Origin: a virus
IMG/VR virus record: IMGVR_UViG_3300032316_000395
Coordinates: 1-32,237 of that record
Direction: 5' to 3' (one strand)
Length of the DNA: 32,237 nt
How positions within the stretch are numbered: the first letter of the stretch is position 1; every line of letters begins with the position of its first letter. Shown piece after piece: positions 2,653-28,244 of the stretch. The translations under genes and the position numbers were made by a program. The notes below the pieces were generated by a model. The model was not told the DNA's origin, did no database searches, and saw nothing but the letters and a program-made list of their open reading frames with translations.

Positions 2653-3219
2653 TTAGTACGCGGCGCGATCAGCGACGTTCTGATGCTCAGAAACCTGAAC
2701 TTGAACAATCGTGAAGTTATCGCCGAAATCGTTGTCTGGTGCTGGCGACAGGCCGATGATACGCATTTGCGCATTACCACTGTCAGTCAGCGTGGCGGTG
2801 TCAAGCATCAACGCCGACAGACCGGTGGTGGTCGATCCTGCGCTGATGGCTGTGTAGTCCGCCTGCTTGCCGATGTCCGTCACTGCGATCGAACCATTTG
2901 CCTGAATTTCATAGACAATGGAGGGGTCGAGTGTGACGTAAGCGACGATTTCGGTAGCCGCAAGGGACGCAGTCCACTTGTTGCTGACGCGACGACGGCC
3001 GTCACTGTCGGTGAACTCAACACCTTGGAACGTACCGATGTAGCGTTCGCCGATTGCGGCCGCTTGGATGGTTCCGTTGGTGCCGATCTTTACCGGCTGG
3101 TTTTGCAAAATATTAGCGGCGTAGCCCGTCAAGATCGAGTAGGCGGTAGGCCGAAGCGCACCACTTGGCGAAAATGCAGGACGAAGGCCGAACGGTTGAG
3201 AAACTGTACTCATGTCCAT
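2653..3219 (-). CDS. Capsid-associated (decoration-like) protein
   Basis: 188 residues. Two ATGs, at 3219 and 3213, follow AAAAGG. The second (MSTVSQPFGLRPAFSPSG) has better spacing, about 9 nt, so the true start may be 6 nt inside. The protein starts with the QPFGLRPAF..SG..R pattern and continues as a beta-rich small barrel with motifs such as GTFQGVEFTDSDGRRRVSN. This pattern is common to proteins encoded directly before the capsid gene in environmental podovirus-like genomes. It ends 15 nt before the major capsid gene, so the two are probably co-translated at high level. A head-decoration or stabilising role is inferred from position; no catalytic motif is seen. Confidence 0.65.
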   Translation of the reverse strand: MDMSTVSQPFGLRPAFSPSGALRPTAYSILTGYAANILQNQPVKIGTNGTIQAAAIGERYIGTFQGVEFTDSDGRRRVSNKWTASLAATEIVAYVTLDPSIVYEIQANGSIAVTDIGKQADYTAISAGSTTTGLSALMLDTATLTDSGNAQMRIIGLSPAPDNDFGDNFTIVQVQVSEHQNVADRAAY

Positions 3220-10246: not shown

Positions 10247-10519
10247 CTAGAACACAAACAGGTTCCCCCACACCGCGAAGGGCAGCCGGCCCCTGTCACA
10301 CATGTTCTGCAAAGACCGCTCGATGTCGCGGCGACGCAGGTCACGCTTGGGCCTCTCAGGCTTCGGCATCGTCGCCACACAGTGTTCGACGAAGTCAGCG
10401 TGCGTCATGCTCTCCTCGACCAAGCTCAGGGCGTCAGCTTCACGAATGATTATTTTCTCGACGCGATAGGTGAAGTAATCGCGGGGCGCTTTCTCTGGAC
10501 GACCAAAATCAAGTTTCAT
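10247..10519 (-). CDS. 90-aa winged-helix-like protein, paralogue of the helicase C-terminus
   Basis: 90 residues; AGGAG lies 7 nt before the ATG at 10519. Residues 43-72 (FVEHCVATMPKPERPKRDLR and RRDIERSLQN) closely match residues about 636-668 of the primase-helicase at 15599-17659. The 9 residues PKRDLRRRD are identical, and the final strand (WGNLFVF against NGHVIFCI) is similar. The basic helix followed by two strands suggests a small winged-helix DNA-binding fold. It is the first gene of the leftward late operon, facing the repeat-filled control region, so it could regulate that region or interact with replication. Function unproven; the paralogy is seen directly. Confidence 0.7.
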   Translation of the reverse strand: MKLDFGRPEKAPRDYFTYRVEKIIIREADALSLVEESMTHADFVEHCVATMPKPERPKRDLRRRDIERSLQNMCDRGRLPFAVWGNLFVF

Positions 10520-10535
10520 GTTTATCTCCTCATGT

Positions 10536-10835
10536 TGCACCACAGCCCATACACCATGGTGACCCACAGTGCAAATACGGATGTGCACCACGCCTTCAGC
10601 AGATGGTGCAAGTGGTGGTACAGTACGAGGTTCGACTTTTTTACTGACCCATCTCGATCTGCACTACACCACGAAATTTTGGGTGCACCACCCACACCAC
10701 CCCACGGCTACCTACGGTATAGCCCGTGGGTTGGTCGTGATGGAGCAGTATGCACCGTGACCCTTCACTGCACCATGGTGCATCATAGGTCATGGTGTAA
10801 ACGCTTCGGTTGCATGGTGCATTCGAGATGGTGTA
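10536..10835. repeat. Iteron-like array of TGYACCA-type 7-mers
   Basis: Exact TGCACCA or TACACCA on the plus strand begins at 10536, 10550, 10584, 10665, 10684 and 10769. The complement TGGTGCA or TGGTGTA begins at 10604, 10776, 10793, 10815 and 10829. Near misses lie at 10694 and 10751. The pair at 10769-10782 forms a perfect 14-bp palindrome, TGCACCATGGTGCA. Two right-hand copies extend to TGGTGTAAAC. Left copies are mostly in one orientation and right copies mostly in the other. Such clustering is typical of binding sites for a phage regulator or initiator. Confidence 0.8.
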
Positions 10836-10869
10836 AACCACCCAATTGCAAACAAATGTAACATGACGT

Positions 10870-10947
10870 AATTTTTTACGTATAGGGGTTTACATACCCT
10901 CTAAACTGTTTACAGATAATCGGACCAACAACGAAAGGGACTACAAA
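10870..10947 (+). promoter_or_regulatory. Promoter-leader cassette copy 1
   Basis: AATTTTTT at 10870 is followed by TAGGGG, a -35-like TTTACA (10889-10894) set inside a GGGT...ACCC inverted repeat, and a -10-like TACAGATAAT (10911-10920). The leader CCAACAACGAAAGGGA (10925-10940) includes the ribosome site for the ATG at 10948. Shares this order and much sequence with the copies at 12622, 14750 and 17644. Probably the main early promoter. Confidence 0.65.
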
Positions 10948-11175
10948 ATGACTACATTGACCACAGCATCGCAGAGCCTCTTCATCAGCCTCGCATCCGA
11001 CGCCGACAACTGGGGTGGTCAGCCTCTGCTTGACATCAGCGCATCGCAGCGCGGCAACCTGACCGACCTCAAGAAGAACGGCCTGCTCACAACCTTCCGT
11101 GACGAAGGTTGCGACTGGGTGATCTTCACCGACGCGGGCCGCGAATTTGCCGCAGCAAACGGCATCGAGATTTAA
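10948..11175 (+). CDS. First early gene, small winged-helix-like protein
   Basis: 75 residues; AAAGGGA lies 7 nt before the ATG. The second half (RGNLTDLKKNGLLTTFRDEG, then CDWVIFTDAGREFAA) has the helix, charged turn, strand, turn, strand and D-A-G-R helix pattern of MarR-type winged-helix ends, so DNA binding is plausible. As the first gene downstream of the control region it is a candidate early regulator or host-takeover protein. No homologue is recognised with confidence. It is followed directly by a UUCG hairpin. Confidence 0.65.
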   Translation: MTTLTTASQSLFISLASDADNWGGQPLLDISASQRGNLTDLKKNGLLTTFRDEGCDWVIFTDAGREFAAANGIEI

Positions 11176-12631: not shown

Positions 12632-12700
12632 ATAGGGGGGTTGCGTATACCCTCAAACTGTTTACAGACAATCGGACCAACAACGAAAAGGAACACCACC
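12622..12700 (+). promoter_or_regulatory. Promoter-leader cassette copy 2
   Basis: AATTATTT (12622-12629), TAGGGGGG, -35-like TTGCGT (12641-12646) inside a GGGT...ACCC inverted repeat, then CAAACTGTTTACAGACAATC. The leader CCAACAACGAAAAGGA (12677-12692) lies before the ATG at 12701. Nearly identical to copy 1 from the ACCC block to the leader. Starts a new gene block. Confidence 0.65.
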
Positions 12701-13807: not shown

Positions 13808-14332
13808 ATGACACCCAGAGAGAAGATAAATGTAGCCATCAGCGACATTGCGCAGGAGCACGGCTACACCGTCGAGGACATCCTCGGCAAGTCGCGGCTG
13901 AAGCATCTGGTGGCCGTGCGCCGCCTGTGCATCATGATGCTGCGCGAGCGCAACTACTCGACCACAGAGATCGGCAGGCTGATGGGTCGCTGCCACAGCA
14001 CCATCGTCCACGCGATAAATAAGCCTGTTGACATGTGCAACGACATGGTTGTAAGGCTACCAGACCAACAACGAAGGGAAACTAAAATGATTGACTGGAC
14101 TAAAGACGAACGCACCGTGGCACTGCTTCCGCAGGTCATCAGGCACGTGGTCGAGTGTGACGAGTTCTCGCTCGAGCACGAGGCGCAGCTTAACCTGATA
14201 CGTGACGAGTATCTGCGCGACCTGCTGAACGACTATCGCGGCGAGAGCGCCGATGACTTCGAGGATTGGCACAACCAGCCGACGATCGAAGATTTCATCG
14301 AGGCGCTGCTCGACGCGGAACCCACACCGTGA
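13808..14332 (+). CDS. DnaA domain IV-like protein, read-through fusion to a second small protein
   Basis: 174 residues from MTPREKINVAISDIAQEHGY. Residues 30-72 (LKHLVAVRRLCIMMLRERNY, then STTEIGRLMGRCHSTIVHAI) match the DnaA C-terminal DNA-binding domain, whose signature is a helix, then EIG..MGR.HSTI.HA. The ATPase domain is absent. After residue 72 the frame runs straight through a leader-like DNA stretch (CCAACAACGAAGGGAAACTA at 14065-14084) into an 81-residue acidic helical protein beginning MIDWTKDERTVALL at 14087. That internal ATG has its own ribosome site, so the second part is probably also, or mainly, made separately. The join may come from a lost stop or frameshift. The start at 13808 has only a weak GAAAGA. 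Confidence 0.65.
   Translation: MTPREKINVAISDIAQEHGYTVEDILGKSRLKHLVAVRRLCIMMLRERNYSTTEIGRLMGRCHSTIVHAINKPVDMCNDMVVRLPDQQRRETKMIDWTKDERTVALLPQVIRHVVECDEFSLEHEAQLNLIRDEYLRDLLNDYRGESADDFEDWHNQPTIEDFIEALLDAEPTP
14087..14332 (+). CDS. Internal-start product: 81-aa acidic helical protein
   Basis: In-frame ATG at 14087, preceded by GAAGGGAAACTAAA, inside the longer frame from 13808. The leader CCAACAACGAAGGGA upstream is the same one that precedes five other plus-strand genes, all of which start just after it. Product: MIDWTKDERTVALLPQVIRH and following acidic helices ending FIEALLDAEPTP. I think this is the real protein unit and that the upstream DnaA-like domain reads into it. Function unknown. 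Its TGA overlaps the next gene's GTG. Confidence 0.55.
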   Translation: MIDWTKDERTVALLPQVIRHVVECDEFSLEHEAQLNLIRDEYLRDLLNDYRGESADDFEDWHNQPTIEDFIEALLDAEPTP

Positions 14333-14789: not shown

Positions 14790-14827
14790 TGTATTGCGGA
14801 CAGGCCAACAACGAAAGGGACAGGCAC
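14750..14827 (+). promoter_or_regulatory. Promoter-leader cassette copy 3
   Basis: AATTATTT (14750-14757), CAGGGG, and -35-like TTGCGC (14770-14775) within GATTGCG-CC-CGCAATC, a perfect 7-bp inverted repeat at 14768-14783. A -10-like TATTGC follows at 14792 and the leader CCAACAACGAAAGGGA at 14805-14820. A further ATTGCG at 14793-14798 can pair with the same CGCAAT, so two alternative hairpins are possible. More diverged than copies 1 and 2, but with the same order of parts. Confidence 0.6.
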
Positions 14828-14995
14828 ATGACTACAGAAGAAATTATTGCCGCAGCGAATACCATCGTGGCGGAAGTTCTCGCAGACGCGGCTGACATAG
14901 TCGCCGAGAGCGAGGTATTTATCAGCATTGACGAGGCCATTGGTCGCGCGGTGATAAATCTCACCTTCGAGCAAGCGAACAACACCAAGCACTGA
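14828..14995 (+). CDS. 55-aa acidic early protein
   Basis: MTTEEIIAAANTIVAEVLAD start at 14828 with AAAGGGA upstream. Entirely helical and acidic (AADIVAESEVFISIDEAIGR), with no Cys or metal sites. It is the first gene behind promoter-leader copy 3. Acidic small helical proteins are common among phage inhibitors of host factors, but nothing here identifies a target. Confidence 0.6.
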   Translation: MTTEEIIAAANTIVAEVLADAADIVAESEVFISIDEAIGRAVINLTFEQANNTKH

Positions 14996-15342: not shown

Positions 15343-15365
15343 ACCCCAACAACGAAGGACACACA

Positions 15366-15572
15366 ATGACAGGCATCAAAAAAGCCATCGAGATGGCCGG
15401 CGGCGCAAACCAGCTCGCCCTCAAGCTCGGCGTCACGCATCAGGCGGTGTACGTCTGGCTGCGGAAGGGTTGGGTGCCGTCCCAGCGCGCCTTGCAGATA
15501 GAGCACCTGTTCGACATCCCACGCGCCGAGTTGTTCAAGCCAGAGCTTGCCGCTCTGTTTGCATCCAACTGA
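15366..15572 (+). CDS. Cro/YdaS-like HTH repressor
   Basis: 68 residues. ATG at 15366, with GAAGGA upstream. Residues 3-50 (GIKKAIEMAGGANQLALKLG and VTHQAVYVWLRKGWVPSQRA) form a lambda Cro/YdaS-type helix-turn-helix, with the recognition helix around VTHQAVYVWL. The tail PRAELFKPELAALFASN fits this family, which counts IEHLF-DIP-R-LRP endings among its common features. It probably binds an operator as a dimer and switches early transcription; the inverted repeat 24 nt upstream is a candidate site. It directly precedes the primase-helicase. Confidence 0.8.
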   Translation: MTGIKKAIEMAGGANQLALKLGVTHQAVYVWLRKGWVPSQRALQIEHLFDIPRAELFKPELAALFASN

Positions 15573-15598
15573 ACGCCGTGGACGAGAAGGGACCGCCC

Positions 15599-17659
15599 GT
15601 GGACAATGTGCAGCCGATCGCGCCACAGAACTTGACTGTGGAAGCGCCCGCCGAACTGCGGGAGCTTCAGGGCTGGTTGATCTGGCGTCTTGAGCCAGAC
15701 CCAATCAACCCCAACGGCAAGCCGCTGAAGGTGCCATACTACGCCGACGGGGGCAAGCGCCACGGCAAGCAGGGCGGCATCGAGGATCGCGGTCGGATGA
15801 CCACCTTCGCCGCCGCCCGTGACGCCGCCGCGCGTCGAGGCTTCACCGGCGTCGGTCTGGCCATGATGCCAGAGTTCGGCGTCACGGCGCTTGACTTTGA
15901 CAACTGCGTTGACGCGCAGGGCAGCCTGCCGCCCGTCGTCAGGGACATCGCCAGCCAGACCTACGCCGAGTATTCGCCCAGCGGTAAGGGCATCCGCGCC
16001 TTCGTGCGTGGCTCCTACGGCAACCACAAGTCGCCGACGGCCGGCAATGACTACGGCTTCGAGGTCTTCACGTCCACAGGGTTCGTGACCTTCACCGGCA
16101 ACGCCATGCCCTACACCGACATCCTCGGCCTCGAGGACACCGTGGCGGATCTCGACCACATCGTCGCGCCACTGTGCGCCGGCCGGTTCACTGCGACATC
16201 GCAGCGCGAGGCAGATCCCGACGACTTCATGATTGGACGCGAGCCGAAGATAGGCCTGTCGGCAACGCAGATGAAGGAGCTGCTGTCTGTGCTCGACGCG
16301 GACATGTATCGCGACGACTGGATTAAGGTTGGCATGGCCCTGCACCACGAGTGCGAGGGTGACGACACCGGCTTTGATATCTGGAACGAGTGGTCGGAGG
16401 GCGGGTCGAAGTACCCCAGCGAGGAGGCGCTGCGGACGCAGTGGGACAGCTTCGAACGCCGCAAGGGCGTCGGGCAACGTCAGGTGACGATGGCGTCCGT
16501 CATGCGCATGGCCAAGGAGGCTGGCGCGTCCGTGCCGCGCCCCGTGGTGGCGGCATCCGTTGACGACTTGCGCACAGCAATGAGCGCGGTTGCCGCCACA
16601 CCTGCCTTGGGCATGTTCACGCCCGAAGAGTACACCGGACGCTTCCCCATCACGTCACTGGCCGTCAGCATCATGCTGGAGCCGGGCGGCTGGCTGATTA
16701 AGAACGTGCTGCCCGACGCCGGTCTGATTGTGTTGTTCGGCGCGTCTGGCTCGGGCAAGACGTTTGTCGCGATCGACCTAGCCTACGCCATAGCGATGGG
16801 CATCCAGTGGCGCGGCAACCGGACCAAGAAGGGCCGCGTGCTGATCATCGCCGCCGAGGGCGGCAAGGGCATGAGCAAGCGCCTGAAGGCGTATTTGAAG
16901 CACCACAAGATTGACCCGAAGGACGTTGACATCGGTCTGCTGACCGTGCCGCCGAACTTCCTGCTGTCCGCAGACGTGACCGAACTGGCTGCGGCCGTGT
17001 CTGCCTCCGGCGGCGCGGACGTCATTATCGTTGACACGATGGCGCAGGTCACACCCGGCGCGAACGAGAACAGCTCCGAGGACGTCGGTCTGGCGCTGGC
17101 CAACGCACGCGCGCTGGAGACCGCCACAGGCGCGACAATCATAATGGTTGACCACAGCGGCAAGGACGCCTCGAAGGGCGTGCGCGGCTGGTCGGGCAAG
17201 CGCGCGGCGGCCGACGCCGAGCTTGAGGTCTTGAAGTATGAGAACGGCACGCGCGAGCTGCGCATCACCAAGATGAAGGACGGCGACGACGGGCTGAAGT
17301 GGGGCTTTCGTCTGGAGATGGTTGTCGTCGGCACCGACGCCGACGGCGACCCAATCACGAGCTGCGTTGCGGTAGAGGCCGACCTGCCTGTGCCTATGGT
17401 TCAGGAGATAGGCCCCAAGGCCCAGCGCTTTGGTCCGAAGGAGCGTCACGTGCTTGAGATTATCGAGAGCGAGTACGAGGGCGTCGAGCGGGTGCCGCTG
17501 ACCGAATTGTTCGACAAGTGCTTGGCCGCCATGACCAAGCCAGAGGCACCGAAGCGCGACCTGCGCCGCCGCGATCTGGAGCGTGCAATCCAGTCGCTGG
17601 CCAAGCGCAAAGATCCGCCGATAGAAATAAAGAACGGACATGTAATTTTTTGCATTTAG
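15599..17659 (+). CDS. Primase-polymerase / replicative helicase fusion
   Basis: 686 residues from a GTG at 15599 (AAGGGA 6 nt upstream; a reading from 15470 would lie inside the repressor gene). Residues 20-190 are an archaeo-eukaryotic primase/PrimPol domain with the catalytic LDFDN (98-102), SPSGKG (126-131) and FEVFTSTGFVTFTG. About 225-300 resembles the PriCT-2 helical domain. Residues 365-600 are a RecA/RepA-like helicase with Walker A GASGSGKT (381-388), Walker B DVIIVDT (474-480) and VDHSGKD (517-523). The last 60 residues are a basic winged-helix-like segment that recurs in the 90-aa protein at 10247. It would prime and unwind at the fork with the family A polymerase encoded downstream. 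The last codon overlaps promoter-leader copy 4. Confidence 0.87.
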   Translation: MDNVQPIAPQNLTVEAPAELRELQGWLIWRLEPDPINPNGKPLKVPYYADGGKRHGKQGGIEDRGRMTTFAAARDAAARRGFTGVGLAMMPEFGVTALDFDNCVDAQGSLPPVVRDIASQTYAEYSPSGKGIRAFVRGSYGNHKSPTAGNDYGFEVFTSTGFVTFTGNAMPYTDILGLEDTVADLDHIVAPLCAGRFTATSQREADPDDFMIGREPKIGLSATQMKELLSVLDADMYRDDWIKVGMALHHECEGDDTGFDIWNEWSEGGSKYPSEEALRTQWDSFERRKGVGQRQVTMASVMRMAKEAGASVPRPVVAASVDDLRTAMSAVAATPALGMFTPEEYTGRFPITSLAVSIMLEPGGWLIKNVLPDAGLIVLFGASGSGKTFVAIDLAYAIAMGIQWRGNRTKKGRVLIIAAEGGKGMSKRLKAYLKHHKIDPKDVDIGLLTVPPNFLLSADVTELAAAVSASGGADVIIVDTMAQVTPGANENSSEDVGLALANARALETATGATIIMVDHSGKDASKGVRGWSGKRAAADAELEVLKYENGTRELRITKMKDGDDGLKWGFRLEMVVVGTDADGDPITSCVAVEADLPVPMVQEIGPKAQRFGPKERHVLEIIESEYEGVERVPLTELFDKCLAAMTKPEAPKRDLRRRDLERAIQSLAKRKDPPIEIKNGHVIFCI

Positions 17660-26602: not shown

Positions 26603-28244
26603 TGTCTTCTAAGTACTTTGAAGTTTCGTCTACCCATTGCTGGTCGAAAGCCTGAACGCGAGGGTCAGACCCAAACGCGTCTTTAACTTCTTTCGGTGTG
26701 CGCTGGAACAGGTACGCTTGGATTTGCACAGGGGTGTAACCCTTGTCGGCAAGTGTTTCCATAGCTCTGAAATAGTCACGAAACATCAACTCGCGCGGCA
26801 ACCCAAATTCTGTGCCCCCCTCGTAAGTTCCTTTCAATTCCTTTGGATAGTTAGGGTGCTCGACTGGGACGGCGTTGCGGTTGCTTGATGCACCGGAAGG
26901 GCTGAGACCTGTTATAGCGCGACCTGACGTGCCTTCAGGGGCGTACAGCAATTCGGGTACGGTTAACGCAACGCGGTTCGACCCGATATCAGGGAAGCCT
27001 TGGTCAAGCGCTGATGCTTTATCAAGAAGTTTTTGAACGGCAGTCCGTTGCGGCATTTTTACTTTGGAAATGTCGTTTAGTTGCGCTGCGGCGGCCATTG
27101 GGTCGACGGCAAAACCCGTGAAGTCCTTGGCGGCTTCTTCCCCAAGTATCTTCCTAACATCCACATCAAAGTTTGATAGATTGTCTTTGGTTACACCCCC
27201 CGCCGCCAACTGCCGACCGAGCAGGTCCATCATCGCGGTGGATTGATCAAGGCCGGTGGCACCCATCGTGGTGTAAACACCAGCTACCGGCTTTCCAAAC
27301 CTGTCTTCGCCGCTTCGCTGCATGTTCTCAAGCGCGCGGATAACAGCGGGCGAACTCTTCCACGCTTCGAGGCCACCAAGCCCTTCGGCGTAGCGCGCAA
27401 AGTCGGGGCCACCCATCGCCAAAGTTTCGCCTACTTGGGGACGGTCGTTGACGCGGCTCGTTGCGGTGCCAGCAATCAATTTGTCGCCGATCAGCGGTAT
27501 ACCAGAACCAAACTTCTTAGCCATATCTTCAGGGGTCGTCACAAATTCAGGCGGTAAATCGACGACGTTACGCACTTCGGTGGTTACACGGTTGGCGGGG
27601 ACGCTCCCCGACAAACCAGAATAGCCTTTATTGCTTTGCGCCATGAACGGACGGCGGCCAACAATCGGCACACGATTGAGAATAGCAAACGATCCACCTA
27701 ACCCTGCGCCTTGTGGAAACTCCACGCCCGCAAGTTCTGGGTGCGGTTCGGCGACCGGCTCGATGGCTTGATATTTTGTTTTTCGCGCGGTTGGTGGCGT
27801 CTCTACCTTTACCGCCAGCTCAGGCAGGCGCAGGTTTTCGCTGATTACTTCTGGGGCTGTCTTCGCCCAGTCTGGCGCGTTGGGCGAGAACAAGTCAAAA
27901 TTGCGGGCGTAGTCGGCGGCCTTAAACCGATCCATGTACTTGCCGCGCTCGTTTACGAAGCCGCGAGAGTTAGCGTCCAGAGATGCTTGGGAACGGACCT
28001 TGGGGTCTGGGATCGCATCAAGCGCGTCAAGATGGGTTGGGCCGGTATATGTCTTCCCGCCGACCCGCACCGCAGACAGCAAGCTAGGTGGTTTGCTTTT
28101 TGGTTTAGGCGTCACCGTCATTTCTGGCGCGGGTGCCTTTGGCTTCGGGTTTACCGCAAGTTTTGCCTTAGCGGCGGCCTTAGCGGCGGCCTTAGCGGCG
28201 GCTTCTCGCGCGGCCTTAGCAGCTAACTTTGACGCGATACCCAT
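26490..28244 (-). CDS. Large virion-type protein A (Ala/Lys-rich N-terminus)
   Basis: 584 residues from MGIASKLAAKAAREAAAKAA at 28244, with AAGGAAG 5 nt upstream. Residues 1-40 are an Ala/Lys/Arg helix ending in VNPKPKAPAPE, nearly the same as the start of the next upstream gene. The middle has no recognised enzyme motif (for example RVGGKTYTGPTHLDALDAIP, and GLGGSFAILNRVPIVGRRPF). The C-terminus is YAEGGLAVRRRPAPLAVRRS and then more Arg/Lys. YAEGG-type ends are common in environmental phage virion proteins. Probably an internal or ejected virion protein; function unproven. The last 113 nt overlap the opposite-strand 51-aa gene. Confidence 0.7.
   Translation of the reverse strand: MGIASKLAAKAAREAAAKAAAKAAAKAKLAVNPKPKAPAPEMTVTPKPKSKPPSLLSAVRVGGKTYTGPTHLDALDAIPDPKVRSQASLDANSRGFVNERGKYMDRFKAADYARNFDLFSPNAPDWAKTAPEVISENLRLPELAVKVETPPTARKTKYQAIEPVAEPHPELAGVEFPQGAGLGGSFAILNRVPIVGRRPFMAQSNKGYSGLSGSVPANRVTTEVRNVVDLPPEFVTTPEDMAKKFGSGIPLIGDKLIAGTATSRVNDRPQVGETLAMGGPDFARYAEGLGGLEAWKSSPAVIRALENMQRSGEDRFGKPVAGVYTTMGATGLDQSTAMMDLLGRQLAAGGVTKDNLSNFDVDVRKILGEEAAKDFTGFAVDPMAAAAQLNDISKVKMPQRTAVQKLLDKASALDQGFPDIGSNRVALTVPELLYAPEGTSGRAITGLSPSGASSNRNAVPVEHPNYPKELKGTYEGGTEFGLPRELMFRDYFRAMETLADKGYTPVQIQAYLFQRTPKEVKDAFGSDPRVQAFDQQWVDETSKYLEDIRKYGEEPYAEGGLAVRRRPAPLAVRRSRPRRKSRKA

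Follow-up and report, generated by a model that had tools for sequence, protein, structure and literature searches.

What is a dense cluster of short repeats doing between two divergent phage genes, and which protein reads it? The cluster lies in a virus record of 32,237 bases, classed as linear and probably a fragment, which we analysed over its whole length and call the window. Its portal region shares 77% DNA identity with the Caulobacter phages RW, KcrB, RLK and GB2A. A preliminary description had reported eleven sites within 300 bp, where fewer than one would be expected by chance. The count holds: positions 10536-10835 contain 11 exact T(G/A)CACCA sites in both orientations, half of the 22 in the entire 32-kb window. 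The motif had been titled TGYACCA, which is wrong; the correct consensus is TRCACCA. It had been set beforehand that the 7-mer should not be equally frequent elsewhere, and within the rest of the window its density is 0.10 per 300 bp, which is also the number expected for the array region. Dinucleotide shuffles of the 300-bp region (n = 2000) gave a mean of 0.48 sites and a maximum of 4, and 100 shuffles of the whole window never placed more than 3 sites in any 300 bp. Such a density is far above what chance would give.

The array occupies the stretch from the ATG of a leftward open reading frame (10519) to that of a rightward one (10948), as had been described, and overlaps the leader of the leftward gene. 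Exact sites start at 10536, 10550, 10584, 10665, 10684 and 10769 on the plus strand and at 10604, 10776, 10793, 10815 and 10829 on the minus strand, with near-matches such as those at 10751 (TGCACCG), 10779 (TGCATCA) and 10533 (TGTTGCA). Other details of the preliminary description were borne out as well. Left copies mostly read TRCACCA and right copies mostly TGGTGYA; a perfect 14-bp palindrome, TGCACCATGGTGCA, at 10769-10782 consists of two abutting iterons; and two right-hand copies, at 10793 and 10829, extend to TGGTGTAAAC. A third, isolated TGGTGTAAAC at 27269-27278, outside the array, is probably due to chance.

Between the two sets of sites lies a G+C-rich hairpin, CCCACGGCTA...TAGCCCGTGGG (10701-10730). 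Since it lacks a T tract, it is not an ordinary terminator. In relatives, its position is kept and its sequence changed. The DNA folding z-score of the window hairpin is -2.5. We treat it as a secondary feature, because a simple gapless hairpin score for it was not above shuffles and many of the best-scoring hairpins in relatives are merely opposed iterons. Array-centre hairpins of separate lineages (L198, L261, L086, L185, L042) have the common form CCCC(T/A-rich loop)GGGG, for example CCCCTAAAGGGG. To the right of the array, an A+T-rich stretch (10844-10885) holds the block TTGCAAACAAATGTAACA, which is conserved in close relatives, and is a candidate unwinding element and/or early promoter. 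A consensus promoter and terminator scan of window positions 10450-11000 returned no match. The first rightward, early gene (10948-11175, plus strand) has no known domain. A leader block around CCAACAACGAAAGG recurs ahead of several early genes (10918-10942, 12660-12690, 14805-14836 and 15348-15366); these genes may share it as an element for translation start or regulation.

Scanning with the large terminase yielded 64 loci. In many of them, sites cluster in the corresponding divergent gap, 1000-1400 bp upstream of where the terminase begins. Conservation in close relatives was the other condition set beforehand, and it holds: arrays occupy this position in L007, L008, L009, L010, L012, L015, L017, L027, L042, L053 and L071. 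The number of exact 7-mers varies among close relatives, down to only 1-3 in L004, L013, L018, L023 and L081. Two repeat types occur among these relatives, the TRCACCA of the window and TGCAGCA/TGCTGCA, and in both the sites flank a G+C-rich hairpin on both sides. KcrB, an isolated phage that is among the closest of the cultured, completely sequenced relatives, shows no clear array; it has Asn at the reading position considered below, which predicts TGCAAC repeats, and we found only scattered copies of these. In KcrB, the terminal repeat, annotated with a length of 2940 bp, has its end within the divergent intergenic region that matches the place of the array (L068/L069; KcrB 2864-3218 and 62291-62367).

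Where the KcrB terminal repeat ends, together with a small terminase subunit (TerS) reading frame about 360 bp from the array, raises the idea of a packaging site (pac or cos) for the TerS encoded alongside. A packaging site should follow its TerS, and it does not. L042 keeps the window-type site with a TerS that is 30% identical, and the arrays of L026 and L032 are 94% identical while their TerS proteins, one encoding MTGRPSTYTEEMGN... and the other MPYPAKKTPELCAQ..., are unrelated. The near-identical arrays next to unrelated TerS genes argue against packaging, which we regard as very improbable. In the terminase region of L026 and L032, one TerS gene has been replaced by another, unrelated one, with near-identical sequence on either side: a clean cassette swap.

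Which protein binds the array? The preliminary description named four candidates: the product of the leftward gene (10247), that of the first early gene (10948), a DnaA-like protein (13808) and a Cro-like protein (15366). Most likely, none of them is the main binder. A domain search found no DNA-binding domain in the product of 10948, and we rejected it. The protein at 13808-14332 (plus strand) is a DnaA domain IV-like helix-turn-helix protein (Bac_DnaA_C, E 1.1e-12) without an ATPase domain. Phages can recruit DnaA-type initiators, and this match would fit an origin served by 13808 or by host DnaA. Such a binder is disfavoured because DnaA-box matches in the window occur at the level of chance, with none near the array. 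TRCACCA is moreover not a DnaA box, and the TGCAGCA-type relatives L029, L034, L037, L046 and L055 gave no DnaA-like match. We give a DnaA-driven origin hardly any credence.

The best-supported binder is a protein that the list of candidates did not include, the phage's own primase-helicase (15554-17659, plus strand; residues are numbered from 15554 and not from an assigned start codon). This single protein joins an AEP-type primase region, PriCT_2, a RecA-fold AAA_25 helicase and a predicted C-terminal DNA-binding domain. PriCT_2 and AAA_25 were identified with Pfam, and the primase region is similar to the solved DNA primases 7ola and 6a9w. Pfam, PHROGs and PDB searches gave no TOPRIM match; the matches were to PriCT_2/AAA_25 and to AEP-type primases. 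AlphaFold2 models residues 605-701 (17366-17659, plus strand) with a mean pLDDT of 79 and the order helix-strand-helix-helix-strand-strand, which predicts a winged helix whose third helix (residues 671-684) would be the recognition helix. Codons 670-684, which cover this helix and the residue preceding it, lie at 17561-17605 on the plus strand (670 at 17561-17563 and 674 at 17573-17575). In a Foldseek search with this domain, winged-helix domains rank first, none of them at E <= 0.001, and a PDB sequence profile search with it returned no significant match.

Scans with relatives of the primase-helicase added phages that share little else with the window. An unbiased search for over-represented 7-mers revealed TGCA-N-C(A/G) arrays in many of these, frequently right behind the stop codon of the primase-helicase. 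Counting as an array any 320 bp with 7 or more T(A/G)CANC(A/G) sites, we examined 129 non-redundant loci with the initiator. Such an array is present in 69 of the 129, where the second-best cluster typically has 3-4 sites. Relative to the primase stop codon, the array starts at -100 to +700 bp in 29 of the 69; another 39 have it 5-11.5 kb upstream, and the remaining locus has it 2.1 kb downstream. The other 60 initiator loci have no cluster that reaches 7 sites, for which truncated contigs or a different repeat are part of the reason. Distant initiators (L171, L172, L287, L289 from Novosphingobium, L290 from Legionella feeleii, and L292-L295) have other tandem or inverted repeats near the gene end, of the types CCCTACTT, TGAAGCA, TGCTACA, GGGAA and CGGTAC, some of them in bacterial genome contigs. 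These repeats likely mark origins of this kind that differ in specificity.

The YdaS/Cro-like helix-turn-helix protein (15366-15572, plus strand) is encoded just upstream of the primase-helicase, and a gene of this kind occupies that place in 40 array loci. YdaS-like proteins are phage regulators, and an array that lies between divergent genes and overlaps the 10247 leader could consist of YdaS operators that switch between early and late transcription from divergent promoters. But in 29 non-redundant array loci the 2.5 kb upstream of the primase contain no YdaS-like gene, and 29 loci carry the array behind the primase stop codon. In the pair L281/L273, the YdaS helix is almost unchanged, whereas the arrays differ (G versus A at base 5) and so does the primase helix. 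Its absence near the primase in those 29 array loci and the L281/L273 contrast disfavour the YdaS/Cro-like protein as the binder, and we consider this reading quite unlikely. It is possible that the protein regulates the replication operon.

If the C-terminal domain of the primase-helicase reads the repeats, protein and repeat should change together. When we sorted the loci by repeat, the residue that follows the conserved KRDxRxQ in this domain followed base 5 of the repeat. We tabulated residue 674 against base 5 in 66 non-redundant rows. His goes with C (11 of 11 rows), Arg or Lys with A (18 of 18), Asn or Leu with A (4 of 4) and Thr with G (2 of 2). Ser is mixed, with G in 18, C in 3 and A in 3 of its 24 rows, and residue 670 resolves most of these: Ile670 with Ser674 has G in 15 of 15 rows, while Thr670 with Gln673 and Ser674 has A or C. 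Taken together, Thr674 or the Ile670-Ser674 combination has G in 17 of 17. The window's own residue, Asp674, is found with C in 5 rows (window clade) and with G in 2 (L086 and L114), so the window is placed by its clade and is not an independent switch. Column 674 has more mutual information with base 5 (1.10 of 1.58 bits) than any other of the roughly 660 in the alignment; the next reaches 0.84. In a contrast of close pairs whose repeats differ against close pairs whose repeats agree, residue 670 ranks first.

Does shared ancestry explain the pattern? Base 5 changes 15 times on a tree from which the C-terminal domain had been left out. Among 11 independent pairs that differ in A, the residue class follows the base in 8, opposes it in 0 and shows no difference in 3 (sign test, p 0.008). 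L170 and L175 carry His and Arg with C and A and are 95% identical outside the domain. L198 and L239 (670/674 Ile-Thr versus Thr-Asn, with G versus A) are 96% identical outside it, and L281 and L273 (Ile-Ser versus Thr-Leu, with G versus A) are 89% identical. Loci outside the 66-row set mostly agree: L209 and L283, with His, have GCACCG-type repeats, and the Arg/Lys loci L162, L165, L174, L203, L204 and L208 have GCAAC-type repeats. Exceptions are the pairs L277/L278 and L266/L247, in which the helices are identical and the majority base differs (A or C), suggesting that other residues matter or that these arrays are in transition. Residue 674 and base 5 change together across dozens of relatives, so that protein and target can be paired from sequence alone. 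These comparisons indicate that the C-terminal domain determines iteron specificity and that the primase-helicase is most likely the array binder.

This identification changes how the leftward gene is read. Gene 10247 (10247-10519, minus strand) encodes a free-standing winged-helix protein of 90 amino acids and starts 17 bp from the array. It is a paralogue of the C-terminal domain of the window's primase-helicase, with identical reading residues (KRDLRRRD), and AlphaFold2 gives it the same fold (pLDDT 84). Counterparts with the same reading residues occur in L071, in L081 and as a fragment in L006; an unrelated gene stands in its place in L008, L018, L035 and L042. As a paralogue of the initiator domain, the protein probably recognises the array sites; most array-bearing relatives lack it, however, and it is most likely not the main binder. 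It may compete with the primase-helicase for the array.

The shared reading residues and the start 17 bp away would also fit an array that serves only as an autoregulatory operator, for 10247 and/or the primase domain, with the origin elsewhere; the divergent promoters that flank the array fit this too. Most array-keeping relatives lack 10247, however, and an array downstream of the primase gene is ill-suited to be a promoter operator. We judge autoregulation alone to be unlikely. The covariation speaks for recognition rather than for the replication role of that recognition, and an added autoregulatory role is possible.

The interpretation in the preliminary description is thus partly supported: of the two functions first proposed, a regulator array or origin iterons, it is the origin that our analysis supports. 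With a probability of roughly 0.8, the array is the iteron part of a replication origin, at which the winged helix of the primase-helicase binds TRCACCA, and the protein loads, opens the duplex and primes. Under this model, the C-terminal winged helix would bind the 7-bp sites through helix 671-684, and several protomers would load in opposite orientations on either side of the central hairpin and so position the helicase rings. The duplex would then open and primers would be laid, giving a bidirectional start; candidate elements for these steps are the hairpin and the A+T-rich stretch at 10844-10885. The product of 10247 would probably compete for the array, limiting initiation or its own promoter. 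The sequences themselves show the array, its conservation, its association with the primase-helicase gene in unrelated genomes and the covariation; from these we infer physical binding, ring loading, opening, priming and a bidirectional start at the array. GC skew has no clear switch at the arrays and is confounded by gene direction.

To our knowledge, replication origins have been located in only a minority of environmental phages. In this case an initiator and its putative origin can be paired from sequence in dozens of phages and in some bacterial genome contigs, and the residue-to-base rule yields a binding prediction for each genome. Origin specificity would be switchable between initiators that are near-identical (95-96%) outside the domain, and a "hypothetical" gene for 90 amino acids, 10247, becomes a testable candidate competitor of initiation. 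A broader proposal, to which we give even odds, is that in a large and mostly uncultured phage lineage the fused AEP primase and RecA-type helicase acts as a self-loading initiator with a simple code between residues 670/674 and base 5, that its specificity has switched repeatedly by few substitutions, and that the duplicated free-standing domain of the window clade is an antagonist with the same specificity.

By analogy, the window system is best read as working like P4 alpha and SaPI Rep, as an initiator-primase-helicase with a C-terminal origin-binding domain. The helicase of P4 alpha is of the SF3 type, and P4 Cnr is a small separate protein that modulates alpha. The primase of P4 alpha is of the TOPRIM type, and its C-terminal winged helix binds origin repeats (PMC4234260). 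The window shares with P4 a winged helix, here predicted, at the C terminus of a primase-helicase that would bind short repeats, and a small separate modulator, a part that 10247 would play by analogy with Cnr. Unlike P4 alpha, the window protein has an AEP-type primase with PriCT_2 and a RecA-fold AAA_25 helicase, and the initiator domain has a true paralogue in 10247. Without TOPRIM homology, the window protein is not a member of the P4 alpha family proper.

SaPI Rep and SCCmec Cch2 are replication helicases whose C-terminal domain reads short iterons, which typically lie immediately downstream of the gene (PMC7581432), and the origins of SaPI and pRN1 are both located downstream of the initiator gene (PMC7581432, PMC4234260). 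Many relatives of the window likewise have iterons directly behind the initiator gene, the layout of 29 of the 69 array-bearing loci. The window does not share it: its clade has the array between divergent genes, 5 kb upstream. The helicase family also differs from that of SaPI Rep and Cch2, and the iteron sequence is unrelated.

ORF904 of pRN1 and the Bordetella phage BIP-1 protein combine an AEP primase, a helicase and a C-terminal winged helix, and BIP-1 also has PriCT_2 (PMC4234260). The window protein has the same combination, with PriCT_2 as in BIP-1. In these two systems the origin lies 3' of the gene with a stem-loop, and in pRN1 the replication protein is preceded by a small repressor gene (PMC4234260). 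Their helicase is SF3, no origin iterons were found, and the recognition motifs were "not yet identified" (PMC4234260). The window differs in having iterons and a helicase that is not SF3, and it provides a recognition motif of the sort that had been missing for winged-helix primase-polymerase initiators such as these. RSF1010 oriV has iterons, small hairpins as priming sites and a RepA-type helicase (PMC4234260). The window resembles it in combining iterons and small hairpins with a RepA-type helicase, but in RSF1010 RepA, RepB' and RepC are separate, and the iteron binder RepC is outside both helicase and primase. What sets the window system apart from these known systems is its RecA-fold helicase, the place of the array in the window clade, the free-standing paralogue of the DNA-binding domain and the residue-to-base rule.
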